Source: Candidatus Palauibacter australiensis (lineage in GTDB: Bacteria > Gemmatimonadota > Gemmatimonadetes > Palauibacterales > Palauibacteraceae). Taken from it: a stretch of DNA of 35,969 nt. A model generated the notes under the pieces. That model was not told where the DNA came from. It saw only the letters and a list, made by a program, of their open reading frames with translations, and searched no databases. The position numbers and the translations under genes are program-made. The stretch covers positions 1-35,969 of the forward strand of contig JAPPBA010000013.1 of NCBI GenBank assembly GCA_026705295.1, written 5' to 3'. This document shows, piece after piece, positions 858 to 14,674 of the stretch. The stretch's first letter is position 1. Every line of letters starts with the position of its first letter.

Positions 858-1982
858 GTGAACACCTTTGCCGCATCTCCACAGAGCGTGATCGCGCGCA
901 CGGTTGTCGCAACTCCGCGGGGAGATCCCGCGGCGGTCCAGGCGCACCTCGACGCGCTGACCAAGCCGCCGGGCAGCCTCGGACGCCTTGAGAAGCTGGC
1001 GCTCCAGGTAGGCGTGGTCCTGGGCGACCCGCCGCCTCCGCTGGAGGACGCGGTGGTGTTCGTCTTCGCGGCGGATCACGGGGTCGCCGCGCAGGGCGTG
1101 TCGGCGTATCCGGCCGAGGTCACGGCGCAGATGTGCGCGAACTTCTCCGGTGGCGGGGCGGCGATCAACGTGCTCACGCGGGCGTGCGGCGCCGGGGTGC
1201 GTGTCGTCGACGCGGGCGTTGCGGCGGACGTCGGCGGGCTGGCGGGAATCGAGCACCGGAAGGTCCGCGCGGGCACGGATGATCTTTCGGCGGGGCCGGC
1301 GATGACCGCGAGCGAGGTCGAAGAGGCTCTGGCGTTGGGCATGGAAGTGGCGGGAGGTGGCGCCGGCTCCACTGGAGCAGCGCGTCCCCCCGGTCCCTGG
1401 CTCGTGGGTGTGGGCGAGATGGGCATCGGGAACACCACCGCGGCGGCTGCCGTAACGGCGTGCCTGACCGGGGCGGCGGGGCGCGAGGTCGTCGGCCGCG
1501 GGACGGGGGTCGACGACGGCGGACTGGCCCGCAAGCGCGATGTGGTGGAGCGCGCGGTGGCGCGGGTCGCCCGCGACGAGGATCCCCGGAGCGATGCCGT
1601 GGCGGTGCTGCGGCAGGTCGCCGGGTTCGAGATCGCGGCCATGTCGGGCGCCATGATCGGCGCGGCTGCGCGGGGCGCCCTCGTGCTTGTGGACGGGTTC
1701 ATCTCGTCGGCCGCGGCGCTGGCGGCCTGCCGCCTGTGCCCCGGCCTGTCGCCGTACCTGGTCGCATCGCACCGCTCAACCGAGCCGGGTCACGCGGTGG
1801 TGCTCGCTGCGCTCGGCCTCGAGCCCCTGCTCGACCTCGACATGCGGCTCGGCGAGGGGACCGGGTGTGCGCTCGCCATCCCCATCGTGCGGGCGGCCGG
1901 AGCGTTGCTCCGCGAGATGGCGACCTTCGAATCGGCCGGGATCTCGGGGCCGAGCGAGGGCCCGTCGCGGGCGGGATCATGA
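858..1982 (+). CDS. cobT: Nicotinate-nucleotide--dimethylbenzimidazole phosphoribosyltransferase CobT
   Basis: This enzyme activates the lower-ligand base: it transfers ribose phosphate from nicotinate mononucleotide to dimethylbenzimidazole to give alpha-ribazole phosphate. The 374-residue product carries the family landmarks KPPGSLGRLE near residue 40, FAADHGVAAQGVSAYP, GEMGIGNTT, and near the C-terminus GEGTGCALAIPIVRAA, whose Glu is the catalytic base in the family. The GTG at 858 is chosen because the protein then begins just before the conserved N-terminal region; the frame is open further upstream without similarity. The stop overlaps the cobU start (ATGA), which implies translational coupling. 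It is the first gene of cobTUSC. I saw no cobalamin riboswitch in the 175 bp upstream. Confidence 0.95.
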   Translation: MNTFAASPQSVIARTVVATPRGDPAAVQAHLDALTKPPGSLGRLEKLALQVGVVLGDPPPPLEDAVVFVFAADHGVAAQGVSAYPAEVTAQMCANFSGGGAAINVLTRACGAGVRVVDAGVAADVGGLAGIEHRKVRAGTDDLSAGPAMTASEVEEALALGMEVAGGGAGSTGAARPPGPWLVGVGEMGIGNTTAAAAVTACLTGAAGREVVGRGTGVDDGGLARKRDVVERAVARVARDEDPRSDAVAVLRQVAGFEIAAMSGAMIGAAARGALVLVDGFISSAAALAACRLCPGLSPYLVASHRSTEPGHAVVLAALGLEPLLDLDMRLGEGTGCALAIPIVRAAGALLREMATFESAGISGPSEGPSRAGS

Positions 1983-2512
1983 TGGAACTCATCCTCGTGA
2001 CGGGCGGGGCGCGCTCGGGCAAGAGCCGGTGGGCTCAGGGCGAGGCGCTGGCGCGCGGCGGGGAAGAGGTCACCGTGATCGCGACCGCGGAGGCCGTCGA
2101 CGACGAGATGCGTGACAGGATCGAGGCCCACCGCCGCGATCGTCCCGCGGGGTGGCACACCATCGAGGCGCCCGCGCGGGCGGGCGAAGCCATCCTCGCC
2201 GCCGGCACGGACACCGTGCTGCTGGACTGCGTGACCGTGCTGACCGGCATGGCGATCGGACGATTGGGCGCCGACGCCGAGGCGGCCGCGTTGGACGCGA
2301 TGGCCGCCGAGATCGACGGGATCCTCGATGCGCGAGCCGCGCGCACCGGTTTGCTGATCGTCGTGACGAACGAGGTGGGGTGGAGCGTGCACCCGCCCAC
2401 CGCGCTCGGGCGCTGGTACCAGGACGGGCTGGGCATCGCCAATCAGCGTCTCGCTGACGCGGCGGACCGGGTGGTTCTCATGGTCTCCGGGCTGGAACTG
2501 CGGTTGAAGTGA
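1979..2512 (+). CDS. cobU: Adenosylcobinamide kinase/adenosylcobinamide-phosphate guanylyltransferase CobU (CobP)
   Basis: This bifunctional enzyme phosphorylates adenosylcobinamide and then transfers GMP to it, giving the AdoCbi-GDP used by CobS. The 177-residue length fits the family. The P-loop GGARSGKS sits at residues 9-16, and the middle region LLDCVTVLTGMAIG and the later VTNEVGWSVHPP are typical. Two ATG codons (1979 and 1982) are possible starts; both overlap the cobT stop. Its stop overlaps the GTG of cobS (GTGA), so cobT, cobU, cobS and cobC are read as one coupled set that completes the nucleotide loop. Confidence 0.94.
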   Translation: MMELILVTGGARSGKSRWAQGEALARGGEEVTVIATAEAVDDEMRDRIEAHRRDRPAGWHTIEAPARAGEAILAAGTDTVLLDCVTVLTGMAIGRLGADAEAAALDAMAAEIDGILDARAARTGLLIVVTNEVGWSVHPPTALGRWYQDGLGIANQRLADAADRVVLMVSGLELRLK

Positions 2513-3327
2513 GGACATCGCTCCGGGGGGCGCGCGCCGCCTTCGTCTTCCTGACGCGTCTGCCGCTGGGCGGTTTTCCCTACTCGGCGGAAGAATGGCG
2601 GTGGGCCGCGGCGTGGTTCCCCCTGGTCGGACTCGTGCTCGGAGGGGCGTGCGCGGCCGTGTGGGGCCTGGTGGCGCCGCTGGGGCCGTGGGTGGCGGCG
2701 ATGAGCGTGATCGTCGTGTCGGTCCTGCTGACGGGCGCCTTCCACGAGGATGGATTGGCCGATACGGCCGACGCGCTGGGTGGAGCGACGGGCCGCGACG
2801 AGATCTTCGTCATCCTGAAAGACTCGCGGATCGGCGCGTTCGGGGCGCTGGCGCTCGTGACGTCCATCGCGTTCCGGCTGGTGCTGCTCGCGCAGTTGGG
2901 GAGTGCGGCACCGGCGTCCGCGCTCGCGGCGGGGGCCTCCCCGCTTGCGGCAGCGCCCGCCGCCCTGCTCCTCGCGCACGGCCTGGCGCGGGTCGGCCCG
3001 GTCTGGCTGATGGTCGCCCTCCCCTACGCGAACGCGGCGGCGGCGAAGAGCGGCCACGTCACGCGGGCCGGGGTGGCGCAGGCAGCGGTTGCGACCGCGG
3101 TCGGCGTGGCCGGCGCGGCGGCCGTGGTGGCGGCGGGTGCGATCGGCGCGACCGGCGTCCTCGCCGCGTTCGCCGCGATGGCCCTCGTCACCGCGCTCTG
3201 CGGCTGGCGATTCCGCGCGCGGGCCGGGGGCGTGACCGGCGACTTCCTCGGCGCGGCGGAGCAGGTCAACGAGATCGCGATCCTGGTCGCCGTGCTCGCG
3301 GTGCAGGTCGCGCAGGCCGCCGCGTGA
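2509..3327 (+). CDS. cobS: Adenosylcobinamide-GDP ribazoletransferase (cobalamin synthase) CobS
   Basis: This integral membrane enzyme joins AdoCbi-GDP with alpha-ribazole (or its phosphate) to form adenosylcobalamin (phosphate). The 272-residue protein is highly hydrophobic with several membrane segments. It has the family signatures FLTRLP near the N-terminus and GAFHEDGLADTADALGG around residues 80-96, followed by ILKDSRIGAFG; the acidic residues in these loops are thought to bind Mg2+. The GTG start overlaps the cobU stop by the GTGA arrangement, and the end overlaps the GTG of cobC. The C-terminal half is unusually Ala/Val rich but keeps the length normal for the family. Confidence 0.94.
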   Translation: MRTSLRGARAAFVFLTRLPLGGFPYSAEEWRWAAAWFPLVGLVLGGACAAVWGLVAPLGPWVAAMSVIVVSVLLTGAFHEDGLADTADALGGATGRDEIFVILKDSRIGAFGALALVTSIAFRLVLLAQLGSAAPASALAAGASPLAAAPAALLLAHGLARVGPVWLMVALPYANAAAAKSGHVTRAGVAQAAVATAVGVAGAAAVVAAGAIGATGVLAAFAAMALVTALCGWRFRARAGGVTGDFLGAAEQVNEIAILVAVLAVQVAQAAA

Positions 3328-3857
3328 TCCGGCTTCTCGCCATCCGCCACGCACCCGTCGCCGCCGAGGGCATCATCTACGGGCAGACGGACGTGCCGAC
3401 GACGCTGGACGGCGCCGAGGCGGCCGCGCGCATCGAGCCCGTCGTGGCCGAGTTTGCCCCGGCGATCATCTGGTCGTCCGATGCCGCCCGCTGCCGCGAA
3501 CCCGCCGCTCTGCTCGCGGAGCGGCTAGGCGTCCCGCACCGCATCGACGAGCGCGTGCGCGAGATGTCCTACGGCGACTGGGAGGGATGGGCCTGGGACG
3601 CCGTGCCACGCACCGAACTCGACGAATGGATGGCCGCCTGGCAGACGCGGTCCCCCCCGGGTGGGGAGACCGTCGCCAGGTTCACCGAGCGGGTGGCCGC
3701 GTGGTGGCGAGACCTGTACGCCGGCCCCCATTTCCTGATGGCGCACGCCGGGGTCGTGCACTGCCTCGACGTAGTGGCCGATGGTCTCCCCTGGGGACGG
3801 GCCATCGAGCGGCGGCTCGACTTCCTGGCGGCCAAACAGTTTACCGGAAACTCCTGA
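3324..3857 (+). CDS. cobC: Alpha-ribazole phosphatase-like histidine phosphatase CobC
   Basis: This is a histidine-phosphatase superfamily protein of 177 residues. The phosphorylated-His motif reads IRHAP at residues 7-11 (RHG in many relatives). The rest of the catalytic pocket is visible: the Glu in REMSYGDWEG, GGETVARF, and the second His in MAHAGVVHCL. Its position directly after cobS, with overlapping GTGA start and stop, supports dephosphorylation of alpha-ribazole phosphate or cobalamin phosphate as the last step of loop assembly. A general phosphatase role cannot be excluded from sequence alone. Its 3' end overlaps the 3' end of the opposing lipoprotein gene by 17 bp. Confidence 0.87.
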   Translation: MIRLLAIRHAPVAAEGIIYGQTDVPTTLDGAEAAARIEPVVAEFAPAIIWSSDAARCREPAALLAERLGVPHRIDERVREMSYGDWEGWAWDAVPRTELDEWMAAWQTRSPPGGETVARFTERVAAWWRDLYAGPHFLMAHAGVVHCLDVVADGLPWGRAIERRLDFLAAKQFTGNS

Positions 3858-5223
3858 TCTCGAGTCCCACTGGCCCCTGCCCCGGGGGGATGCTGTCGGT
3901 CAGCGCCCAGGTCTCCGGGTCATAGCGGAAGATCCAGGGCGACAGGTTCTGGCGCGTACTGCCGAAGAACGTCTGGTAGAGCGAGCCGTCCGCCGCCGTG
4001 TGCGCGCCAAAGGCGCCCCGGCAACCACCGCCGGCGAGGGGCGCGCAGATCGGGTTGGAGGCGTCGCGCACGAACGCCTTCGTGGCCGTGTTCCAGGCGA
4101 CCGTCCCCGTGAAGAACGCCGACGCAAAGAGCGTTCCGTCCTCCGACACGTGAACGTGTCCCGAGCCTGCGGGGAATCCCTCAACGACCTCGACGACTTC
4201 GAGTGAACCGGGGTCGATGATCGCCAGCGTCGACGGCGCGACGTAGTTGCCGGTGTTCATCACGTACAACATCCCGTCGGGCCCGATGGCCCCGAACTGC
4301 GGATTGGTGCCGCCGGTCTCGATGGTGGCGAGGACGGTCATCGTGAGCGGATCGAGCGCGGTCACCACCCCGTCGCCCGCAGGCGCGAAGTTCTCGTCCA
4401 GGTTTGCGGAGATGACGAAGGCGAGCGAGCTGGAGAACGGCACGATGCCGGTCGGGAACTGCGTCACCGGGACCAGGTCCCCGATGGCGCCGCCGGCCTG
4501 TCCGATCGTGAACCTGCCCACCTCATCCGTCCGCTGGTTGGCCGCCAGCACCGTCCTGTCGTCCACGAACGCCGACCCGGTCGCGTTCCCGGATTCGAAG
4601 AGGAAGAACCCGCCGATCTGTCGCGTACGGAGGTCGATGACGGCGACCGAGGCCGCGTTCCCGAGGGGAACGACGCCCATCTCGCCGCGGATGCTGATGC
4701 CGGTGGGAGTCACCGCGCTCGACGCCCCCAGGGCGATGTCGCGGTTCTCGCCCGGATCGCCGAGCTGGAAGAGCCGGAGCGCGTTCGCGCTCGAGTTCAC
4801 GACGATGCCGATCTGGGCGTCGGCCACCGTTCCGTCGAGAAACTCCAGCCTCTCGACCAGCAGCGAGACCGACGCGTTGCCGGTGTTACCGTCGGAGTCC
4901 GTTGCCCTCAGCGTGATCGAGTGCACGCCCACCGACGGCGATTCGATCTCCAGCGGCGAACCTGTGCCCAATGCCCCGTCGATCGAGCTCGTCCAGGCCA
5001 GCGCAGCGTTCCCCAGCGTGCCGTCCTGCGGATCCGTGGCCGAGCCGACCAGCTGGACCGGCGTCCCTTCGCTGACCATGAGCCCGGAGGCCGGCGAGGT
5101 GATCGTTACGCTGGGCGTGCCGGGCCCGATCGGGCCCACGGGTTCGACAGGGGGGTCATCGCCGCATGCGGTCAGAATGACGAGGGCGAGGGGTGCGATG
5201 AAGCGAAGCGCGGTACGGGTCAT
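3841..5223 (-). CDS. Beta-propeller lipoprotein next to BtuB, BtuG-like candidate
   Basis: The 460-residue product starts at an ATG (5221-5223) with a lipoprotein signal ending LTACGDD, so the mature protein is a lipid-anchored extracytoplasmic protein. After a Pro/Gly linker, residues of about 35-130 look like an Ig/PKD-type domain (VTITSPASG, LRATDSDGNTGNASV). The rest resembles a YncE-type seven-bladed propeller with recurrent short strands such as IDLRTRQIGGFF and ALDPLTMTVLATIE. It lies 53 bp downstream of btuB on the same strand, behind the same cobalamin riboswitch. In Bacteroides, BtuG is a propeller surface lipoprotein that captures B12 for BtuB. I infer an analogous role here; similarity to BtuG itself is not proven. 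The stop codon is TAA. Confidence 0.72.
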   Translation of the reverse strand: MTRTALRFIAPLALVILTACGDDPPVEPVGPIGPGTPSVTITSPASGLMVSEGTPVQLVGSATDPQDGTLGNAALAWTSSIDGALGTGSPLEIESPSVGVHSITLRATDSDGNTGNASVSLLVERLEFLDGTVADAQIGIVVNSSANALRLFQLGDPGENRDIALGASSAVTPTGISIRGEMGVVPLGNAASVAVIDLRTRQIGGFFLFESGNATGSAFVDDRTVLAANQRTDEVGRFTIGQAGGAIGDLVPVTQFPTGIVPFSSSLAFVISANLDENFAPAGDGVVTALDPLTMTVLATIETGGTNPQFGAIGPDGMLYVMNTGNYVAPSTLAIIDPGSLEVVEVVEGFPAGSGHVHVSEDGTLFASAFFTGTVAWNTATKAFVRDASNPICAPLAGGGCRGAFGAHTAADGSLYQTFFGSTRQNLSPWIFRYDPETWALTDSIPPGQGPVGLEIRSFR

Positions 5224-5276
5224 GAGAGGTCCATCCTTGGTTGACTGGGATACGGTGAACGAGGCGGATTGCGCGG

Positions 5277-7511
5277 TCATCTCGCGGCTCCGATGCGGAT
5301 CCGCGTCGACCAGCCGCGGCCCGGCAGGGGGTAGTCGACGAGCAGCGCGGCGCGTTCGTCGAGGAGGTTCGTAACGGCCACCTCGAGCCGCCCGGCGAAG
5401 CGGCTCCACTCGAAGGGCAGGGCGATGCCGGCGTTGAACAGCGTGTAGGCGGCGAGCGCGTTCAGCGGGGAGCCCGGCACCGTGCGGCGCGCCCCGACGT
5501 GTGTGCCCGACGGCGTGAGGGTGATTCCGGCCGGCATCCCGATGCCGAGGGCCACATCCGCCGTGAAACGCGGCCGGTAGGCAACTTGGCCATCGAGCAC
5601 GGCGCCGGTGTACTCGACCTCGGACCAGGCGGCGCTCGCGGTGAGGCTGTGCGTGCGTCCGAACGCGGCCAGATCCGTCGTGGCGCCGAGCTCGAGGCCG
5701 CGGCGCGCGACGTCGTAGTTGTCCGGGCTCCACACGAAACGGTGGTCGGGGAACCAGAGGATCATGTCGTCGAGGTCCGCGCGGTAGGCGCTCGCGCGCA
5801 GTTCCCCGGTTGCCGGGCCCACAGACCACCGCTGGGCGAGCGTCGCCGAGAGTTCTCCCCGTATGCGCTCCGGCCCGAGGTCGGGGTTGGGCTCGACGAG
5901 GACCCCTTCCTGGAAGAAGAGGTCGCCGAGCCCGGGAGGGGAGAAGCCGTGGCCCCACCGGAGGTCGAGGGCGAGCCCGCCCCGGGTGAGCGCGGCGTCG
6001 ACGGCGGGCGACAGGGTCACGCCATCCACAAGGTCGTGCCGGTCGGCGCGCAGGGAAGCACCCAGATCGAGGCGGAAACCGCGCCGCAGCTGCCAGCCGC
6101 GCCCGGCATGTGCCCACGCCCCGAGTTCGTCGAGGCCGATGCCGGGCGACGTCAGCGCGTTCGACTCGACATCGAGCCGTGCCGCTTGGAGGCCGAACCG
6201 GAGGTCAAGCGACTCGCGCGACGACGAGGACGCTTCCGCGCGCCACCATCCTTCCACGGCGAGCTCCGCCCGTCGCACTCGCGTCCGGGTATCGTAGGCG
6301 CGCCCGAAGGGGGGCTCCGGATCCGCGTAGTCCGCGCGCTGCCACTGCACCGAACTGCGGGCCGAGCCTCCGAGGCGTGCCGGAGAGGCGCCGTCCGATT
6401 CGACCGTGACGCCGAGCCCGTAGCGACGGTGGCGCTGCCGGCCGGTGGCGGAGGGCTGCGCGATCGTCCCCGGGCTCCCGCGCTCGATGTCGCTGAGGTG
6501 GGCGCGCAGCGAAGCCTCCGCGCTCCCGCGCCGTGTGATGCGGAGGTCTCCGCCGGCGTGCGAGAAGGCGGAGTTCTCGCGGGTCGTCTCGCCGCCGCCC
6601 CGGAAGGCGGGGACGTCGTAGGTGAAGGCGCCGTTCGATCGCCGCCAGCGGGCGCCGCCGGAGACCGACCAGGCGTTCCCGAAACCGCTCGACCCGGTGA
6701 CCGCCGTCTCCGCCGAGGACCAGGCGCCCATCCCGGCGGTGACGGCGGCGGTGGTCGCGTCGCGGTTGCGGCTCTCCAGCAGGACGACGCCGCCGAGCGC
6801 CTGCGGTCCGTACCGGGCGGACTGCGCCCCCGGAATCACGGTGATGCGGGACACGGATTCGAGGTCCACCGTGCTCAGGTCGGCGACGCCGGTGAGCGGA
6901 GAGTTGATCCGCGTTCCGTCGAGCAGTACCAGCACCTGGTCGCCGCCCGCGCCGCGCAGTTGCAGCACGGCGGGGGCCCCCGGTCCGCCCTGTCTCACGA
7001 CGGTTGCCCCGGGAACGCGTTCAAGCGCGGCCGGGAGATCCGTCACGCCGGGCGGAAGGCTGGCGGTCTCCAACACGGTGGCGCCGGCGTCCCGTTCGCG
7101 GGATGCCACCTGCACCACCAGCCCCCTGAGCCGCACAGGCGCCGGATCGAGCACGATGCTCGTTCGCGTGACACGCCCGTTCACGGCTTCGACCTCGACC
7201 GCGGCCTCCAGGAAGCCGGGCGCCGAGATCACGAGGGCGTGCCGTCCGGGCGAAAGACCTCGCAGGACGGCGACGCCGCGCGCGTCGGTCGTCGCCTGGA
7301 GCCCCGCGCCCCGGACGGCGACCATCGCCCCCGGAACGGCGACTGCCGCACCCGCGTCCGCCGCAGCCTCGCCCGGCGCGCCCGGCGCAGTCCTTGCCGC
7401 CCGCACGGACACGTGAACGGACGCAGCGACCTGCGTGGGGAGCGCGTGTGCCGAAGCGCCCGGGACGGCAACTCCGGCGGCCAGGATGGCAATCGCGAAC
7501 TTCGTCTTCAC
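5277..7511 (-). CDS. btuB: TonB-dependent cobalamin receptor, BtuB-like
   Basis: This is a 744-residue outer-membrane receptor predicted to import corrinoids with TonB energy. The GTG at 7509-7511 gives a clean signal peptide (KTKFAIAILAAGVAVPGASA). Residues of about 35-115 form a carboxypeptidase-regulatory-like domain (VAVLRGLSPGRHALVISAPGF). Next is the plug domain, with LPAALERVPGATVVRQGG, LQLRGAGGDQVLVLLDG and VIPGAQSARYGPQALGG, and then the barrel. The final residues RIRIGAAR are not the usual Phe/Tyr/Trp end. The cobalamin riboswitch about 100 nt upstream is the evidence for the substrate. The downstream gene is the propeller lipoprotein. A start-proximal hairpin holds the ribosome site. 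Confidence 0.9.
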   Translation of the reverse strand: MKTKFAIAILAAGVAVPGASAHALPTQVAASVHVSVRAARTAPGAPGEAAADAGAAVAVPGAMVAVRGAGLQATTDARGVAVLRGLSPGRHALVISAPGFLEAAVEVEAVNGRVTRTSIVLDPAPVRLRGLVVQVASRERDAGATVLETASLPPGVTDLPAALERVPGATVVRQGGPGAPAVLQLRGAGGDQVLVLLDGTRINSPLTGVADLSTVDLESVSRITVIPGAQSARYGPQALGGVVLLESRNRDATTAAVTAGMGAWSSAETAVTGSSGFGNAWSVSGGARWRRSNGAFTYDVPAFRGGGETTRENSAFSHAGGDLRITRRGSAEASLRAHLSDIERGSPGTIAQPSATGRQRHRRYGLGVTVESDGASPARLGGSARSSVQWQRADYADPEPPFGRAYDTRTRVRRAELAVEGWWRAEASSSSRESLDLRFGLQAARLDVESNALTSPGIGLDELGAWAHAGRGWQLRRGFRLDLGASLRADRHDLVDGVTLSPAVDAALTRGGLALDLRWGHGFSPPGLGDLFFQEGVLVEPNPDLGPERIRGELSATLAQRWSVGPATGELRASAYRADLDDMILWFPDHRFVWSPDNYDVARRGLELGATTDLAAFGRTHSLTASAAWSEVEYTGAVLDGQVAYRPRFTADVALGIGMPAGITLTPSGTHVGARRTVPGSPLNALAAYTLFNAGIALPFEWSRFAGRLEVAVTNLLDERAALLVDYPLPGRGWSTRIRIGAAR

Positions 7512-7515
7512 TCGA

Positions 7516-7537
7516 CCCCGTCTTCTCCGGGACGGGG
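7516..7537 (-). promoter_or_regulatory. Start-proximal hairpin with the btuB ribosome site in its loop
   Basis: On the minus strand CCCCGTC and GACGGGG form a perfect 7-bp stem closing an 8-nt loop, CCGGAGAA, which contains the only ribosome-site-like sequence before the GTG at 7511. It lies in the 100-nt stretch between the riboswitch and btuB and is a reasonable part of the expression platform, acting on translation. The stem is seen directly; the regulatory role is inferred. Confidence 0.4.
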
Positions 7538-7610
7538 AAGAGCACGGTCGAACGTCCACGCGACGGCGTGAACGCGGGACCACGCCCTCCCGCGAGGGTG
7601 CTGATCCGAA

Positions 7611-7774
7611 GACGGAGGAGAGGTCTCCTGGCTTGGGACGGATCCGCTCGCCTTCCCGGGCCTCGCGGCCCAGTGGCTTCGTGAACGGAACGCCGAGGGA
7701 TCGAAATCCCTCTGTCCCTTTACAGTGGCGGGGCCGCGCCGGACTTTCACCGGACTTCCGAGCGCCCCTCCGTC
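7611..7774 (-). promoter_or_regulatory. Cobalamin (AdoCbl) riboswitch upstream of btuB
   Basis: The minus strand carries the conserved aptamer blocks in order: a P1 5' strand GACGGAGG (7767-7774), GGTGAAAGTCCGG, CCCCGCCACTGTAAAGGGAC, the second GCCACTGGG, CCGGGAAGGCGAGC, and the B12 box AAGCCAGGAGACCT (7621-7634). The P1 3' strand CCTCCGTC (7611-7618) closes the element with 8 perfect pairs. This is a textbook cobalamin riboswitch of about 164 nt. It should repress the btuB-propeller transcript when cobalamin is plentiful. The aptamer call is very safe; the mode of control is inferred from the ribosome-site hairpin. Confidence 0.96.
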
Positions 7775-7790
7775 TATAAACTGCGATGAT
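7775..7790. promoter_or_regulatory. Possible divergent promoter between the btuB riboswitch and pduX
   Basis: TATAAA (7775-7780) is the only AT-rich stretch between the riboswitch 5' end and the pduX ATG at 7786. On the + strand a -10 here would start transcription close to the ATG, giving a nearly leaderless pduX. On the minus strand the complementary TTTATA could serve the riboswitch transcript. No convincing -35 hexamer is seen in either direction, so this is a weak call. Confidence 0.25.
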
Positions 7791-8895
7791 GGATACAGGC
7801 TCTGCCGACAGCGTGCAAGCCAGTGCAGTGTCGCGTAAGTCCGCGAGTCGCCGAGCGTGCCGGAGCTCCGCGGCGCCCTCGGCAAGGCGCCCGGCCGGGG
7901 CAAGTGCGGGGTCCGCGACCTGGGCAACCCCGGCCACCTGCGGCGAACTCGTGCAGGGCTTCGGTCGCGGCCGATGGCTCCAGATCGCGGCTCCCGTCGA
8001 CATGTACCGCACCGCCCGCGCCGAGGTCGTGCCGCTCGCCCGGTCCGACGCTGGCGCTTCCCGCCGCTACGCCAAGGTGAAACGCGGCCTGGAGATCCTG
8101 CTGCGCGACCGGCCCGGCTGCGCCGTGCGCGTGATGCTCGGCGGCGATGAGGTCCCGCGGGGGACCGGTTTCGGAAGCAGCACCGCCGACCTGGGCGTGG
8201 CGCTGCGCGCCGGCATGGACGCCCTCGGCCTGCGGGGGTCGTGTGAAGCCGTCGTCCGCGCCGCCCTCCAGGTCGAGCCGACCAGCGGCTCCCTCCTCTC
8301 GGGGCTCGTCCTGTTCGATCATCGGCGGGGTACGATCCGGGAGCCGCTCGGCCCGCCCCCGGCCCTGAACATCCTATGCATCAGACTCCCCGGGGCGGTG
8401 GACACGGTGACGTTCAACCGGGGCCTCCCCACGCGACTCCCCGAACACGCCCTGAGAGCCTGGCGCGACGCTTTCCGGCTCTGCGCCGAAGGGATTGCGC
8501 ACGGTGACGCCGGGAAGATCGGCGCGGCGGCGACGGCGAGCGCGGCGGCGGCCCGGCACCTGGGGTGTCCTCCCGCCCCGCCGGGACTGGAAGCGTGTGC
8601 CCGGGGGACGACGGCGCTCGGCATCCTGCGGGCTCACTCGGGCACGGTGTGGGGGCTGCTCTACCCGCAGGACGAGACGCCGGCCCCGGAGGAAGTCGCG
8701 GAGATCCTGAAGCACGGGGGGGCAATCACGACGCCCGCGCTGCCGGCGCGTTCGTCCGCGACGGTGGCGTCCCTGAGACTAATCGGCGGCGGCTGCCGAG
8801 TTGCCCCGTCCTCGGACATGCCGCTATCGTCGCAGATTGACGCGAGGGGGCCACCGGAAGTTCGGTCCGAAGCCGACGCGGCCCCGCCACTGTAG
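7786..8895 (+). CDS. pduX: GHMP-family L-threonine kinase, PduX-like
   Basis: This enzyme phosphorylates L-threonine; CobD then decarboxylates the product to aminopropanol phosphate for the corrin side chain. The signature PATCGELVQG falls near residues 48-57 and the GHMP ATP loop GTGFGSSTADLG near residues 127-138. HSGTVWGLL near the end is also typical. At 369 residues it is longer than PduX (about 300): roughly 45 N-terminal and 55 C-terminal residues look unconserved. The start is uncertain: ATG 7786 or 7789 has no ribosome site and lies 11 nt from the opposing riboswitch, so a start further in (such as GTG 7828) is possible. The TAG stop (8893-8895) lies inside the core of the next riboswitch. 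Confidence 0.85.
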   Translation: MMDTGSADSVQASAVSRKSASRRACRSSAAPSARRPAGASAGSATWATPATCGELVQGFGRGRWLQIAAPVDMYRTARAEVVPLARSDAGASRRYAKVKRGLEILLRDRPGCAVRVMLGGDEVPRGTGFGSSTADLGVALRAGMDALGLRGSCEAVVRAALQVEPTSGSLLSGLVLFDHRRGTIREPLGPPPALNILCIRLPGAVDTVTFNRGLPTRLPEHALRAWRDAFRLCAEGIAHGDAGKIGAAATASAAAARHLGCPPAPPGLEACARGTTALGILRAHSGTVWGLLYPQDETPAPEEVAEILKHGGAITTPALPARSSATVASLRLIGGGCRVAPSSDMPLSSQIDARGPPEVRSEADAAPPL

Positions 8896-9003
8896 GAGGT
8901 CCGGATCCCATCGCGGATCCGAAACGACGCGCTCGACGGCCACTGGATGATCCCGGGAAGGCGAGCGATGTCGCCTCGAGTCAGGAGACGCGGTTCCCTC
9001 GTC
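8839..9003 (+). promoter_or_regulatory. Cobalamin (AdoCbl) riboswitch upstream of btuF-cobQ operon
   Basis: Aptamer blocks in order: 5' P1 strand GACGCGAGGG (8839-8848), GGAAGTTCGGTCC, CGGCCCCGCCACTGTAGG (8879-8896), GGCCACTGG (8938-8946), CCCGGGAAGGCGAGCGATG, a degenerate B12 box GAGTCAGGAGACGC (8978-8991), and 3' P1 strand CCCTCGTC (8996-9003). Size and order match the element before btuB, though the B12 box departs from AGCCAGGAGACC. It controls the seven-gene import and assembly operon that begins at 9037. About 57 nt of its 5' half are also the end of the pduX reading frame. Confidence 0.94.
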
Positions 9004-9027
9004 CTTTGAACACCATCCTTCGAGGGA
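8995..9027 (+). promoter_or_regulatory. Alternative helix between P1 3' strand and the btuF ribosome site
   Basis: TCCCTCG (8995-9001), which mostly belongs to the riboswitch P1 3' strand, is perfectly complementary to CGAGGGA (9021-9027), the purine-rich ribosome site before the btuF GTG at 9037. The two pairings are mutually exclusive, so ligand-dependent closure of P1 could affect access to the ribosome site. The complementarity is visible; the role and its direction are inferred. Confidence 0.35.
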
Positions 9028-9036
9028 GGGGACCCG

Positions 9037-9987
9037 GTGTACACGGCACACCAGGCAAGGGCGAGCGCGACGCCGAGCGCGACGGCGCCCCCGAGTTCTC
9101 CGTTCGCCCGGTGGATCGCCGCCCTGCTCGCCCCGGTCCTCCTCACGTCCTGTGCCCCGGACGAGCCTCCGGACATGCCCGCAGTTTCCGTCACGGACGA
9201 TGCGGGATACACCGTCGCGCTCACCGCGCCGGCGGGCCGCGTCTTTTCGGTGATCCCCTCGCTGACCGAATCGATCACCGCGCTCGATCCCGGCGTCCTC
9301 GTCGCGCGCACCCGCTTCGATCGGGCGCCCGAACTCGCTCACCTCCCTTCGCTGGGCGGGACCATACAACCGAATCTCGAGGCACTGGCCGGTCTCGAAC
9401 CCGATCTCGTCGTCACGTGGGCCGACGCGTCCCAGCGCGCGGTGGGGGAACGGGTGGACGCGCTGGGCATTCCCGTCTACAGGGCGGTCGTGCAGACGAT
9501 CGACGATGTGCGCAGCCACCTGCGCCGCCTGGGCACACTCCTCGGCCGCGAGGAACGGGCCGCCGCGCTGGTGGATTCGCTGGACCTCGCGCTGGAGGGC
9601 GTGGCCGCCACGGTGCGCGGCCGCGAGCGCCTCGACGTCTACTACTCCGTCTGGCACGACCCGCCGCAGACGACCGGGCCGGGAACCTTCATCGACCAGG
9701 TCATCGAGCACGCGGGCGGGCGCAACATCTTCGGCGATGCCGCGCGCTCGTGGCCGCGGGTGTCCATCGAGGCGATCCTGCGGCGCGATCCCGACGCCCT
9801 CGTCATCGCTCGACACGCGCCCGGCGCGCCGGGTGCTCCGTGGCTCGAGGGGCCGGGCTGGCGGGAACTGCGGGCCGTCCGCAACGGCCGCTATACCCTC
9901 GTCGACGGCGACCTCTTCAACCGCCCCGGACCACGCGTGGCCGAGGCGGCACGTCGCATGGCCGAGTTCCTGCACGGGCCGCGTTGA
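9037..9987 (+). CDS. btuF: Cobalamin ABC transporter substrate-binding lipoprotein BtuF
   Basis: This periplasmic binding protein delivers corrinoid to the BtuCD importer. The GTG start at 9037 follows a strong purine-rich site (GAGGGAGGGG). The signal peptide ends LLTSCAPD, so it is probably lipid-anchored rather than free. The mature region has the class III binding-protein pattern: RVFSVIPSLTESITAL, then ALAGLEPDLVVTW, an alpha-helical linker, and the C-terminal lobe with AGGRNIFGD and RDPDALVIARH. At 316 residues the length is normal. It is the first gene after the second cobalamin riboswitch, and its stop overlaps the btuC start (TTGA). Confidence 0.9.
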   Translation: MYTAHQARASATPSATAPPSSPFARWIAALLAPVLLTSCAPDEPPDMPAVSVTDDAGYTVALTAPAGRVFSVIPSLTESITALDPGVLVARTRFDRAPELAHLPSLGGTIQPNLEALAGLEPDLVVTWADASQRAVGERVDALGIPVYRAVVQTIDDVRSHLRRLGTLLGREERAAALVDSLDLALEGVAATVRGRERLDVYYSVWHDPPQTTGPGTFIDQVIEHAGGRNIFGDAARSWPRVSIEAILRRDPDALVIARHAPGAPGAPWLEGPGWRELRAVRNGRYTLVDGDLFNRPGPRVAEAARRMAEFLHGPR

Positions 9988-10979
9988 CGCACACCCCCCG
10001 CCGGCTCGCACTCCTCGCGCTGGTCGTCGTGGCCGCGGTCGCGCTCAGCGTCTCCTTCGGCGCCTCCGGCCTGGGTCCCGGGGATCTGTGGCGCTTCCTC
10101 ATGGGAGAGGCCGATCCCACCACCCGTTCCATCCTGCTCCAATTGCGGCTGCCGCGCGCGGTGCTGGCGGCGCTCGTCGGAGGCGCGCTCGGCCTCTGCG
10201 GCTGCACCTTCCAGGCCCTTCTGCGCAACCCGCTCGCCGAACCCTACGTGCTGGGCGTCTCGGGCGGAGCCGCCGTCGGCGCGGTGGCGGTCGTGGTGAC
10301 GGGCATCGGGCTGCGCTTTCCCTGGATGCTCCCCCTGGGCGCGTTCGCCGGCGCGCTGGCCGCGATGGCGCTGGTGCTGGCGGTCGCGCGGCGGGCCTCG
10401 CCCGGTCGGATGGACACGCGTGTCCTGATCCTGTCGGGCGTGATCATCGGCGCCTTCTTCAACGCGGTAATCCTGCTTCTGCTCTCGCTCGCCGACGTGG
10501 AGTCGTTCCGCTCGGCGATCTTCTGGATGATGGGGAACCTGTCCGGCGCCGACTGGGCTTCGACCGGGCTGCTGGCCTTGCTGCTCGTGCCCGGCGCGCT
10601 GGCCGTCTTGTCGCTTGCCCGGGCCTTCAACCTTCTGTCGCGCGGAGAGGAGGTTGCGTTCTACCTGGGCGCCTCCGTGCAGCGGGTGAAGCTCACCGCC
10701 TATCTGGCCGCGTCGCTGATGGTGGCCGCGGCGGTCGCGGCCGGCGGCGTGATCGGCTTCGTCGGGCTGATCGTTCCGCACGCCGTCCGGCTCGCGTGGG
10801 GGAACGACCACCGCCTGCTCCTGCCCGCATCCTTCCTGGCCGGCACCGCCTTCCTCCTGCTCGCGGACACGGTGGCCCGGCTGGTGGTGGCGCCCGCCGA
10901 ACTCCCGACCGGGGTGGTCACCGCCGTCGCGGGGGTCCCGTTCTTCGTGGCGCTGCTGCTGCGGGGGGGACGGCGGTGA
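9984..10979 (+). CDS. btuC: Cobalamin/Fe3+-siderophore-type ABC permease BtuC
   Basis: This is a FecCD/BtuC-family permease of 331 residues with about ten membrane segments. Family marks include RLPRAVLAALVGGALGLCG, FQALLRNPLAEPYVLGVSGG, GVIIGAFFNA, and GFVGLIVPHAVRL, the last being the coupling region that contacts the ATPase. The start appears to be TTG at 9984, overlapping the btuF stop as TTGA; no ATG or GTG fits better without removing the first membrane segment. Substrate is assigned from the riboswitch and neighbouring cob genes, because the family also imports siderophores. Confidence 0.91.
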   Translation: MTHTPRRLALLALVVVAAVALSVSFGASGLGPGDLWRFLMGEADPTTRSILLQLRLPRAVLAALVGGALGLCGCTFQALLRNPLAEPYVLGVSGGAAVGAVAVVVTGIGLRFPWMLPLGAFAGALAAMALVLAVARRASPGRMDTRVLILSGVIIGAFFNAVILLLLSLADVESFRSAIFWMMGNLSGADWASTGLLALLLVPGALAVLSLARAFNLLSRGEEVAFYLGASVQRVKLTAYLAASLMVAAAVAAGGVIGFVGLIVPHAVRLAWGNDHRLLLPASFLAGTAFLLLADTVARLVVAPAELPTGVVTAVAGVPFFVALLLRGGRR

Positions 10980-11809
10980 GGGGAACCGCGCCCGCGCGCG
11001 ACTGGCGGCCAGTGTTGGAGGGCCGGGATCTGAGCTTCACCCATCCGCGCGCGGACGAGGCCGCCGTGCGCCGGGTCTCGCTCTCGGTCTCCCCGGGGAA
11101 GCTCCTCGCGGTCGTGGGTCCCAACGGCGCCGGTAAGACGACGCTGTTGAAGCTCCTCTCCGGTTCCCTGACGCCTCAGGAGGGTGGAGTGACGCTCGAC
11201 GACCGCGCACTGTCCGACCTGGGCGACCGGGACCGTGCCCTTGCGATCGCCGTGGTGCCGCAGTCCGAGTCCTCCCCCTTCCCGGTCACGGTGCGGGAGA
11301 TGGTGGGGATGGGACGATACGCGCACCTCGGCCCGTGGGAGCGCTCCGGCGACGGGGACCGCGCGGTGGTGGAAGATGCGATGGCGCGCTGCGCGGTCGC
11401 GGAGTTCGCGGACCGCCACCTGGGCGAACTCTCCGGCGGCGAGCGGCAGCGGGCGCGCATCGCTCGCGCGCTTGCCCAGGAGGCGCCGGTCCTCCTTCTC
11501 GACGAACCCACTGCCGGACTCGACCTCCGCTACCGCATGGAGCTCTTCCACCTGCTGCGCGAACTCCGGGGTGCCGGCCTCGGCGTGCTGGTCATCACGC
11601 ACGACCTCAACCTGGCCGCCCGGTTCGCCGACCGGCTGCTGCTGCTCGACCGCGGGCGCGCGCGGGCCCGGGGCGCCCCGGATGAAACGCTGTCACGAGA
11701 GTCGCTGGAGGCCGTCTACGACTGGCCGCTCAGAGTCGTGCCGCACCCCGGACCCGGGAGCGACACCGGCGCACCGCAGACTGTCCCGCTCAGGAAGGAA
11801 GACCCGTGA
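10976..11809 (+). CDS. btuD: Cobalamin ABC transporter ATP-binding protein BtuD
   Basis: This 277-residue ATPase powers corrinoid import with BtuC. Walker A GPNGAGKTT is at residues 48-56, the signature LSGGE at 152-156, Walker B VLLLDEPTAGLD follows, and the switch His is in VLVITHDLNLAARF. The GTG start at 10976 overlaps the btuC stop (GTGA), and its own end overlaps the GTG of cbiB. The C-terminal tail of about 25 residues is Pro/Gly rich and lies beyond the usual fold. The chain of GTGA junctions implies near-equal translation of importer and biosynthesis enzymes. Confidence 0.92.
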   Translation: MRGTAPARDWRPVLEGRDLSFTHPRADEAAVRRVSLSVSPGKLLAVVGPNGAGKTTLLKLLSGSLTPQEGGVTLDDRALSDLGDRDRALAIAVVPQSESSPFPVTVREMVGMGRYAHLGPWERSGDGDRAVVEDAMARCAVAEFADRHLGELSGGERQRARIARALAQEAPVLLLDEPTAGLDLRYRMELFHLLRELRGAGLGVLVITHDLNLAARFADRLLLLDRGRARARGAPDETLSRESLEAVYDWPLRVVPHPGPGSDTGAPQTVPLRKEDP

Positions 11810-12801
11810 GCGCGTCGCGGCGGGCCGCACGCCCCGTGGTGCTGAGCCTGGTGGGCGCCCTCGTCCTCGATTGGGTCCTGGGCCAGCCTCGCCTTCATCC
11901 GGTGCGGGCGATCGGAGGGCTGCTGGGCGGTGCGCGCCGACTGCGGCGCAGCCGGGGACCGCTGGGAAGCCTCGTCGAAGGGGCAGCGGCGCTGGCGGTA
12001 GTGTCGGGCATCGCCGCCGCGGCCTCGCGTCCCCTGGCGGCGCGCCCTGGGCGCTCCTCCCGACCGTCCTCCGGGTCCGGGCTGCCCGCCACCCTCCTGG
12101 CGGCAGGGACCGAAGCCCTGCTCCTGCATCCGGCCCTCGCCCTCGAACCGCTCGCCGAGGCGGGAGAACGGGTGGCCGCCGCGCTCGGGGCCGGAGACCT
12201 CGACGGAGCGAGACGCCACCTGGCGTGGGACCTGGTCAGCCGGGACACGAGCGCGCTCGACGCATCTCACTGCGCCTCCGCGGCGATCGAGTCGATGGCG
12301 GAAAACCTCTGCGACTCGGTGGTGGCGCCCGCTTGCGCCTACCTTGCGGCCGGCCTGCCGGGGGCCTGGGTCTACCGGGTCGTCAACACCGCCGACGCGA
12401 TGTTCGGCTACCGAACTCCCGACCTGATCTGGTACGGGAAGCCGGCGGCGCGTGCCGACGACCTCCTCAACTTCGTACCGGCCCGGCTGGCGGCCGTCCT
12501 GATCGTGATGGCCGCGGGGTCTCAACCGCTCCGCCGTGACGGGATCCGTCCGGTGCCCGACGGAGTCTTGCGTCTCCTCCCGCGTGAAGCGTCGCGCGCG
12601 GCGGGGCCCAACGCCGGGTGGCCGATGGCCGCCGCCGCGCTCGCCCTGGGAGTCCGGCTCCACAAGCCCGGCGTCTACACGCTGAACGCCGCGGGCGCTC
12701 GACCGGACGCCGGCGACATCGACGCGGCCGCCACTCTGATCCGCCGCGCCGCCTGGCTGGGCATCGGGCTGGTCGTCGCGGCAGGAGTCTGCCGCTCATG
12801 A
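11806..12801 (+). CDS. cbiB: Adenosylcobinamide-phosphate synthase CbiB
   Basis: This membrane enzyme attaches aminopropanol phosphate (or threonine phosphate) to the f-carboxylate of adenosylcobyric acid. The 331-residue protein shows family marks LVLDWVLGQPRLHPVRAIG at the N-terminus, VSRDTSALDASHCASAAIESMAENLCDS (residues of about 144-171; written here only as the region's sequence start VSRDTSALD and end SMAENLCDS), FGYRTPDLIWYGKPAARADD, and GPNAGWPMAAAA. It is flanked by btuD and cobD with overlapping junctions. Note that this gene is called cobD in the Pseudomonas naming scheme; I use cbiB to avoid confusion with the decarboxylase next door. Confidence 0.92.
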   Translation: MSASRRAARPVVLSLVGALVLDWVLGQPRLHPVRAIGGLLGGARRLRRSRGPLGSLVEGAAALAVVSGIAAAASRPLAARPGRSSRPSSGSGLPATLLAAGTEALLLHPALALEPLAEAGERVAAALGAGDLDGARRHLAWDLVSRDTSALDASHCASAAIESMAENLCDSVVAPACAYLAAGLPGAWVYRVVNTADAMFGYRTPDLIWYGKPAARADDLLNFVPARLAAVLIVMAAGSQPLRRDGIRPVPDGVLRLLPREASRAAGPNAGWPMAAAALALGVRLHKPGVYTLNAAGARPDAGDIDAAATLIRRAAWLGIGLVVAAGVCRS

Positions 12802-13985
12802 ACTGGCGACCCCCGCCCCCCGACCCCCGCCTTGCGGGGGCGCCGCCGGAGTTCCACGGCGGGCCCGGGTACGAGGAGGACGCGGAGTATCCCCCCGTGT
12901 CCGCCGACCTCAGCACCAACGTCAACCCGTACCTGCCGGACGAGGCCGTGCGCGGGGCCGTCGCCGCCGCACGGCTCGACGCCTATCCCGATCCGACTTC
13001 GAGCAGGGCTCGCGCACGGGTGGCCGGCGTCTGGGGCCTCGATGCCGAGCGCATCCTGCTCGCGCCCGGAGCCTCCGAGCTGATCTACCGGATCGCCCGC
13101 TGCTGGATTCGCCCCGGCGACCCGGCGGTCGTGTGCGGCCCCACCTTCGGCGAGTACCGCCGCGCCGTGGCGATCCAGGGTGGGGAAGTCCACGAGGTGC
13201 GGGGGGTCGCTCCGGATTTCAGGCTGCCGCTCGAACCGTTCTCCGACCGCGTCGCCCGGCTCCGTCCGCCGGTCGCTTTCCTCTGCACTCCCAACAACCC
13301 CACCGGCGAAGCACTCTCCGACACGAGCGTCGCCCAGCTCGCCGGCCGGATGCCCGCCGGGACGCTCCTGGTGATCGACGAGTCCTACCGCTCCTTCGCG
13401 GAGGGACGCCTCGCGCCACCCCACCTGCCCCACGACGACCGCGTCCTGCACCTGCGCTCCTTCACCAAGGATCTTGGCGTACCTGGGCTGCGCCTCGCCG
13501 CCGCCGTCGCGGCGCCTGGGATCCTCCACCCGCTCGCAAGCGTCGCGCCGCCCTGGTCCGTGTCCTCGGTCGCCCAGGCCGCGCTCCGGGCGGCGCTTGC
13601 CCCGCGCGCCCTCGCCCGACTCGAGGAGAGCCTCATCCGCATCGCTGCACGGCGCCGGACGCTGTCCGCGGCGCTCGCCCGGCGCGGGTGGCGTCCCGGC
13701 CCCTCCGCGACCGGCTTCATCCTCGCGGCGGTCCCCGATGCGGCCGCCACGGCACACGCCCTCAGGCTCCGGGGCGTCCGCGTGCGTCACGCGGCCTCCT
13801 TCGGGCTCCCAGGGCACATTCGTGTCTCGGTTCGGCGGCGCGCCGAGGAGGAGCGCTTCCTCGCCGCGCTCGACGAGATCGCCGCCTCGGACGAGATCGC
13901 CGCCCCGGACGGGATCGCCACCCCGGACGGGATCGCCACCCCGGACGGGATCGCCGCACACACAACCGCAGGAGGACCCTCGTGA
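12798..13985 (+). CDS. cobD: Threonine-phosphate decarboxylase CobD (PLP)
   Basis: This PLP enzyme converts L-threonine phosphate, the product of the PduX-like kinase, to (R)-1-amino-2-propanol phosphate for CbiB. The 395-residue fold-type I aminotransferase-like protein shows LSTNVNPYLPDEAV, APGASELIYRIAR, FLCTPNNPTGE, LVIDESYRSF and the PLP-lysine region LRSFTKDLGVPGLRL. The ATG at 12798 overlaps the cbiB stop. The last 35 or so residues are an odd acidic tail made of five six-residue repeats (DEIAAS, DEIAAP, DGIATP twice, DGIAAH) that lie after the normal end of the fold. Similarity to histidinol-phosphate aminotransferase is expected; context decides the call. Confidence 0.91.
   Translation: MNWRPPPPDPRLAGAPPEFHGGPGYEEDAEYPPVSADLSTNVNPYLPDEAVRGAVAAARLDAYPDPTSSRARARVAGVWGLDAERILLAPGASELIYRIARCWIRPGDPAVVCGPTFGEYRRAVAIQGGEVHEVRGVAPDFRLPLEPFSDRVARLRPPVAFLCTPNNPTGEALSDTSVAQLAGRMPAGTLLVIDESYRSFAEGRLAPPHLPHDDRVLHLRSFTKDLGVPGLRLAAAVAAPGILHPLASVAPPWSVSSVAQAALRAALAPRALARLEESLIRIAARRRTLSAALARRGWRPGPSATGFILAAVPDAAATAHALRLRGVRVRHAASFGLPGHIRVSVRRRAEEERFLAALDEIAASDEIAAPDGIATPDGIATPDGIAAHTTAGGPS
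13872..13961 (+). repeat. Five tandem 18-bp repeats in the 3' end of cobD
   Basis: Five consecutive 18-bp units of the form GACGRGATCGCCRCC plus a short variable end keep the reading frame and encode six-residue units. Copies 3 and 4 are identical; copies 1, 2 and 5 differ at a few positions. The array looks like replication-slippage expansion appended to the end of the protein. Confidence 0.9.
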
Positions 13986-14674
13986 CCCAGGACGACGAGC
14001 GGAGTTCGGACCGCTGCCGACCGCGCTGCCGTCCCGCGCCCCCGGAAACCGCCGATCCGAGGTGCTCGACCGGCGACCGGGGCGCCCGGCATCCGAAGGC
14101 CCCGGTGCCGAAGCAGAGGACGCCCGGACCCTACCGCGTCCCGCCCCGCGAGCGGCGCACGGGTCTCGTCATCCTCAACACCGGCGACGGCAAGGGGAAG
14201 ACGACGGCCGCCCTCGGTACGCTGCTGCGAGCCCGCGGCCGTGACATGACCGTGGCCATGCTGCAGTTCCTCAAGACCGAAGGCGTGCAGCGGGGCGAGC
14301 ACATCGCGGCCGAGAAGCTCGGGGTCGAGATCGTGCCGATGGGCGCGGGATTTACCTGGCTCAGCGAGCGCATCGAGGAGGACCGCGCGCTGGCGCGCGA
14401 GTGCTGGGCGCAGTGCCGGGAGGTTCTCGACTCCGGGCGCTACGACATCGTGATCTTCGACGAGTTGACCTACCCCCTCGCATACGGCTGGCTGGACCAC
14501 GGCGAGGTGCTGCCCGCGATCCGCGATCGTCCGGCCGGGACGCACGTGATCATCACCGGGCGCATGGCCACCCCGGAACTCATCGAGTTCGCGGATCTCG
14601 TCACCGAGATGAAGGACGTCAAGCACCCCTATCGGACGCGCGGCATCGGGGCGCAGCCCGGGTTGGAGCTGTGA
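13982..14674 (+). CDS. cobO: Cob(I)yrinic acid a,c-diamide adenosyltransferase CobO (CobA type)
   Basis: This cytosolic enzyme transfers the adenosyl group of ATP to the reduced corrinoid. The 230-residue protein contains the P-loop [12 protein letters not shown], the block [30 protein letters not shown], and the late block [15 protein letters not shown], then [22 protein letters not shown] split over the C-terminal third. About 55 N-terminal residues before [13 protein letters not shown] are Arg/Pro/Cys rich and not part of the fold, so translation may begin further in. The GTG at 13982 overlaps the cobD stop; the stop overlaps the GTG of the cobQ fragment. Confidence 0.92.

Follow-up and report, generated by a model that had tools for sequence, protein, structure and literature searches.

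A candidate BtuG-like lipoprotein beside a BtuB-like receptor and a cobalamin riboswitch in Gemmatimonadota

The locus and its cobalamin gene neighborhood

The window analyzed here, 35,969 nucleotides in length, is one whole contig of a Palauibacter-type Gemmatimonadota genome, that of a sponge- and coral-associated bacterium; lipoproteins of the window's relatives are 99%, 96%, and 89% identical to records of Candidatus Palauibacter rhopaloidicola, poriticola, and denitrificans, respectively. Its reverse strand carries a cobalamin riboswitch (7601–7785; Rfam RF00174, 73.9 bits, E 1.4e-16, cut-off 31.5) located 5' of a gene for a BtuB-like TonB-dependent receptor (5277–7511 including the stop codon; GTG start), which was assigned from Pfam and NCBIfam matches and from its fold. 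After a gap of 53 nt between the receptor stop and the next start comes a gene encoding a 460-residue lipoprotein with its lipid-bearing cysteine at position 20 (3841–5223; translation, AlphaFold model, and Foldseek). The arrangement originally predicted, a lipoprotein 53 bp behind btuB and below a cobalamin riboswitch, is therefore present in all its parts. A search of 3700–9100 detected neither a sigma-70-type promoter nor an intrinsic terminator; the spacing, together with overlapping genes in relatives, suggests that receptor and lipoprotein share one transcript.

The receptor comprises an N-terminal CarboxypepD_reg-like domain (7149–7343, reverse strand; Pfam/NCBIfam) and a plug (6786–7049, reverse strand; Plug PF07715, 2.5e-19). 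Its best NCBIfam model was TIGR01779, TonB-B12 (2.8e-29), with a score of 102 bits, far below the curated BtuB equivalog cut-off of 599.7. The predicted structure (pLDDT 83) found BtuB proteins at ranks 1–4, headed by BtuB3 (8p98) and BtuB1 (8blw), then E. coli BtuB (1nqg). The receptor is thus like these three proteins in its top fold matches and best NCBIfam model, and unlike them in sharing 17–20% identity and in bearing the extra N-terminal domain.

Convergent with the lipoprotein gene, on the forward strand, are cobT, cobU, cobS, and cobC (900–3857), associated with late cobalamin assembly and salvage (PF02277 1.5e-123, PF02283 1.2e-48, PF02654 5e-45; TIGR03162 2.3e-36, below its cut-off). 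A GHMP-kinase-like gene (7786–8895, forward strand) separates two divergent cobalamin riboswitches; it matched nothing in Pfam or NCBIfam at 1e-6 and, judged by eye, possibly encodes a PduX-like threonine kinase. The second riboswitch (8856–8989, forward strand; RF00174, 54.7 bits) precedes genes for a BtuF-like lipoprotein, BtuC (FecCD), and BtuD (ABC) (9037–11809, forward strand; PF01497 1.8e-21, PF01032 1.2e-91, PF00005 5.3e-33), and these are joined by the corrinoid salvage genes cbiB, cobD, the adenosyltransferase gene cobA/btuR, and a cobQ/cbiP-like gene (11806–16173, forward strand; PF03186 1.7e-71, PF07685 7.1e-41, TIGR01140 2.1e-65, below its cut-off, TIGR00708 2.8e-51). Published surveys did not find a B12 synthesis pathway in Palauibacterales, where btuB and btuF are present (PMC10469786), and report, for host-associated Gemmatimonadota, only the late B12 steps (PMC10581226). 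Given these surveys and the late-assembly and salvage genes, the organism most likely imports and remodels corrinoids.

Domains and predicted fold of the lipoprotein

The lipobox of the lipoprotein reads ILTA before Cys20, and a lipobox is present in nearly all relatives. An attempt to name the protein from Pfam was abandoned, as no family reached its cut-off; DUF5074 passed its cut-off only for a relative from the phylum KSB1 (L162). The AlphaFold model (mean pLDDT 90.7, pTM 0.81) contains two folded regions. Residues 137–458 (3850–4815, reverse strand) form a seven-bladed beta-propeller, as judged from model strands, profile matches, and Foldseek; the single sequence gives a weak signal of YncE/YVTN repeats (TIGR02276, 4.6e-4), which the model and the family profile show clearly, in agreement with the YncE-like propeller of the original prediction. 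Residues 36–124 (4852–5118, reverse strand) form an Ig/PKD-like domain. Here the family matches over residues 37–121 are weak (Big_7 1.6e-4, PKD 6.9e-4, both just under the gathering score), but the model folds the stretch confidently and the Ig structure 9kvu matches the lipoprotein at 4e-5, so that the predicted Ig-like region also holds.

When the lipoprotein model was compared by Foldseek with 350,542 PDB chains, ranks 1–8 and 11–17 were BtuG1, BtuG2, BtuG3, or 3dsm. The structural comparison with BtuG that had been proposed as a check accordingly returned BtuG as the best PDB match: BtuG structures aligned with TM scores, normalized by target, of 0.71–0.79 at 12–16% identity, as against 0.65 for the S-layer YVTN propeller 1l0q. 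The receptor and lipoprotein models, predicted separately, therefore have their best matches in the partner chains of the same known BtuBG complexes.

Recurrence across Gemmatimonadota

A profile search of 295 genomes of the class detected the propeller in 93, which represent 39 of 121 genera. Of the 80 genomes checked, 66 have a cobalamin riboswitch 2.2–5.6 kb upstream of the propeller and on its strand, and several of the 14 genomes without a detected riboswitch have the locus near contig ends. Among the 82 loci with enough upstream sequence, a TonB receptor gene ends -4 to 165 nt from the propeller start in 59; in eight receptor–propeller pairs, the two genes share 4 nt, which points to translational coupling. 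The other 23 loci miss this strict adjacency count in several ways: three (L087, L092, and L102) do so only through a misplaced start, since a receptor gene does precede the propeller; L105 and L108 are the second of two tandem copies; in four, a further stretch of 0.7–1.6 kb intervenes; and the remainder showed no receptor above the threshold used. The survey for further pairs that had been suggested thus found the pairing across the class and, as described below, in KSB1, and this recurrence rules out a chance pairing in one genome.

Two side observations concern the makeup of these loci. One genus of family f8 has two propeller lipoproteins in tandem behind a single BtuB (L105, 2060–4314; L108, 5956–8210). 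Outside its own genus, the family of the window has very divergent propellers (47–67 bits) beside BtuB-like receptors (L134, L136, L138, L139, and L140), with tmRNA genes nearby in all five loci.

Within the genus Palauibacter, the window-type propeller and the window-type BtuB are present in the same set of six genomes. Other Palauibacter genomes also hold cobalamin riboswitches. In most of the loci read (L178, L182, L183, L185, and L186), the riboswitch precedes a TonB receptor that is of another, more distant type and has no detected propeller of this family, which argues that a lid is not obligatory; in two (L180 and L184), it precedes a receptor with a divergent propeller.

The same arrangement in KSB1

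A scan of named genomes was run with a 15-row alignment, as the 71-row alignment was too diverse for it. The sole KSB1 locus that it returned, L162, comprises a riboswitch (95.5 bits), a BtuB-like receptor, and a propeller lipoprotein 34% identical to that of the window; as read from its sequence, it adjoins divergent methylmalonyl-CoA-mutase-like genes. A search of the phylum added four loci (L212, L213, L214, and L216), in each of which a riboswitch and a BtuB-like receptor come with a lipoprotein that has IYVLNEGLFGRDNSSLTFYD, the BtuG motif, or a close variant of it. In L214, this lipoprotein aligns along its length with BtuG1 (8blw_B) at 1.8e-32. By sequence, the lipoproteins of these four loci are BtuG homologs outside Bacteroidota, and they extend an earlier report, drawn from 313 human gut genomes, that BtuG homologs are exclusive to Bacteroidetes (PMC6143338). 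In two more KSB1 loci (L220 and L221), the riboswitch and BtuB are paired with a 640-residue secreted YVTN propeller that has the same long loops as those described below.

Relationship to BtuG

Published BtuG homologs were defined by BlastP at 1e-10 (PMC6143338); a single-sequence phmmer search of the PDB with the window lipoprotein returned no BtuG chain at E<=1. A profile of 71 relatives did match BtuG1 (8blw_B), at 2.7e-11, and scored the generic S-layer propeller 1l0q higher, at 2.9e-24. This order of scores, the identity to BtuG of just 12–16%, and the missing BtuG N-terminal motif (NEGxF...NxS, LGDxAxS) would fit convergence, in which an ordinary YVTN surface propeller was recruited onto BtuB independently of BtuG. 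Such an origin, which bears on ancestry only and is compatible with a lid function, appears rather unlikely to us. Profile–profile comparison scored the propeller family better against BtuG (3.3e-25) than against ordinary YVTN propellers (4.7e-17), the latter being three propellers not linked to BtuB, and 1l0q is a repeat-rich protein without the loop insertions that the family shares with BtuG. These insertions, long loops with the patterns NAxLDxNFxPA in blade 4 and NxGxF/Y in blade 5, are common to the propeller family, BtuG1, the KSB1 BtuG proteins, and the 640-residue KSB1 proteins; BtuG2 has only the blade-5 loop, and short turns take their place in ordinary YVTN propellers and 1l0q. On the basis of the profile similarity and the shared insertions, the propeller family and BtuG probably share common descent. 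The original prediction had allowed for a convergent or a related module; the second of these is favored, short of proof.

The putative binding pocket has diverged. In BtuG2, residues W194, W272, Y316, and Y335 form a clamp that narrows the upper-ligand cavity, and sequence alignment places N274, G353, F405, and T423 of the lipoprotein at these positions, which suggests that the pocket chemistry of the Gemmatimonadota propeller differs from that of BtuG2. BtuG1, for which cyanocobalamin-bound structures also exist, itself keeps only the two tyrosines of the clamp.

Like BtuG1, BtuG2, and BtuG3 of Bacteroides (PDB 8ptd, 8bai, and 8okv; PMC6143338, PMC10404256), the protein is a lipoprotein with a seven-bladed propeller whose gene lies by btuB below a cobalamin riboswitch; unlike them, it combines low identity with the missing N-terminal motif, replaced clamp residues, an added Ig/PKD domain, and an export signal that is unproven here. 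With the YVTN/YncE propellers (the S-layer protein 1l0q, DUF5074), it shares a repeat superfamily, 1l0q being the strongest profile match, and it departs from them in the long blade 4 and 5 loops of its family and in the poorer structural match of 1l0q. Because sequence similarity and clamp residues both fall outside BtuG membership, we file the lipoprotein as a divergent BtuG-like branch.

Proposed function and surface position

We consider it quite probable that the lipoprotein acts at the cell surface as a BtuG-like lid, capturing corrinoids for the BtuB-like receptor in a B12-salvaging organism. The gene order, the riboswitch, the lipobox, the predicted folds, and the recurrence of the trio are the observed part of this model; a surface position, corrinoid binding, and a complex with BtuB would make up the rest. 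In the proposed mechanism, a fall in intracellular corrinoid would lead the riboswitch to let both genes be expressed, and the lipid-anchored propeller would cap the BtuB barrel at the cell surface. Its central funnel would bind cobalamin or precursors such as cobinamide and hand them over to BtuB; BtuFCD would then carry the corrinoid across the inner membrane, and the neighboring CobA/CbiB/CobD/CobUSTC enzymes would complete or repair the cofactor. The Ig/PKD-like domain at the N terminus, in those lineages that have it, may space the propeller from the lipid anchor. The BtuG-like reading of the lipoprotein that prompted this analysis is supported by both the structural match to BtuG and the recurrence of the pair.

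The replaced clamp residues could also mean that the propeller is linked to corrinoids in another capacity, recognizing a different ligand, a corrinoid carrier, or a breakdown product, with only its fold in common with BtuG. Beta-propellers are versatile, and others serve siderophore TonB systems (XusB; PMC13142918). We regard such a job as very improbable, since a cobalamin riboswitch and a BtuB-type receptor accompany the propeller in almost every lineage checked, and no catalytic family of Pfam or NCBIfam was matched.

A second alternative keeps the partnership with BtuB and turns the propeller toward the periplasm, as an inner-leaflet lipoprotein that passes corrinoid from BtuB to BtuF or aids receptor assembly. 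Asp at position +2 of a lipoprotein directs inner-membrane retention in E. coli. An acidic residue follows the lipid cysteine at +2 in 16% of the relatives, and lipoprotein surface export is not established for Gemmatimonadota. This orientation nevertheless seems improbable: the best fold matches are external lids of BtuB, and SusD-like proteins, common in the class (31 of 61 genomes), share with the propellers a pattern of acidic residues at +2 to +4 that BtuF lacks. The mean number of such residues was 1.21 for SusD-like proteins (n=14), 1.12 for propellers (n=86), and 0.40 for BtuF-like proteins (n=45), a likeness that is suggestive only because the samples are small and related. As an observation in its own right, the SusD-like loci (L225–L254) and the acid-rich lipobox contexts suggest a Bacteroidota-like lipoprotein surface export signal in Gemmatimonadota.

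Electrostatic steering was considered as a family trait and dropped. Net charge ranges from -35 to +2 in the Gemmatimonadota propeller family, which as a whole does not share the strongly negative charge of BtuG2.

The Ig/PKD domain and lateral transfer

Most relatives are propeller-only proteins of about 350 residues without an Ig domain, and the 456–478-residue forms are limited to the window's genus and two genera of the distant family f6; the N-terminal Ig-like domain is thus an addition of some lineages, as had been proposed. Its assignment as a spacer between lipid anchor and propeller, which we infer, has a precedent in BtuH2 of Bacteroides, a B12 lipoprotein of the cell surface whose N terminus carries PKD domains (PMC8941943); it resembles the window protein in this PKD-type region and differs from it in having a B12-binding domain that is not a propeller.

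Over the whole cob/btu cluster, Palauibacter is 68–94% identical to genus g17 of f6, with BtuC at 89–94%, as against 31–64% identity to members of its own order; for window 900–10979 against L074, L076, and L078–L080, the range is 70–94%. The PanB control gave 61–71% for g17 and 60–61% for the own order. Since the cluster is closer to g17 than to the own order, its lateral transfer together with the Ig-bearing lipoprotein is the simplest reading.

Implications for surface corrinoid capture

BtuG has been called exclusive to Bacteroidetes, a distribution explained by competition in the gut (PMC6143338). The BtuB-plus-propeller architecture is found in KSB1 and in Gemmatimonadota that live in soil, in groundwater, or with sponges, which suggests that surface corrinoid capture is broader than the gut, and the Gemmatimonadota and KSB1 pairs offer an out-group for studying the evolution of the BtuB lid. 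BtuG2 is already in use in soil work (PMC11287211), and the propellers described here are distant candidate binders to try as corrinoid traps. As a joint proposal, to which we give slightly less than even chances, a riboswitch-controlled BtuB with a lid would be an old trait of several phyla (Gemmatimonadota, KSB1, and Bacteroidota) rather than a gut invention of Bacteroidetes; the Gemmatimonadota pocket would have a chemistry of its own, possibly tuned to other corrinoids, and the Ig-bearing form would have moved between unrelated marine lineages with a whole salvage cluster.
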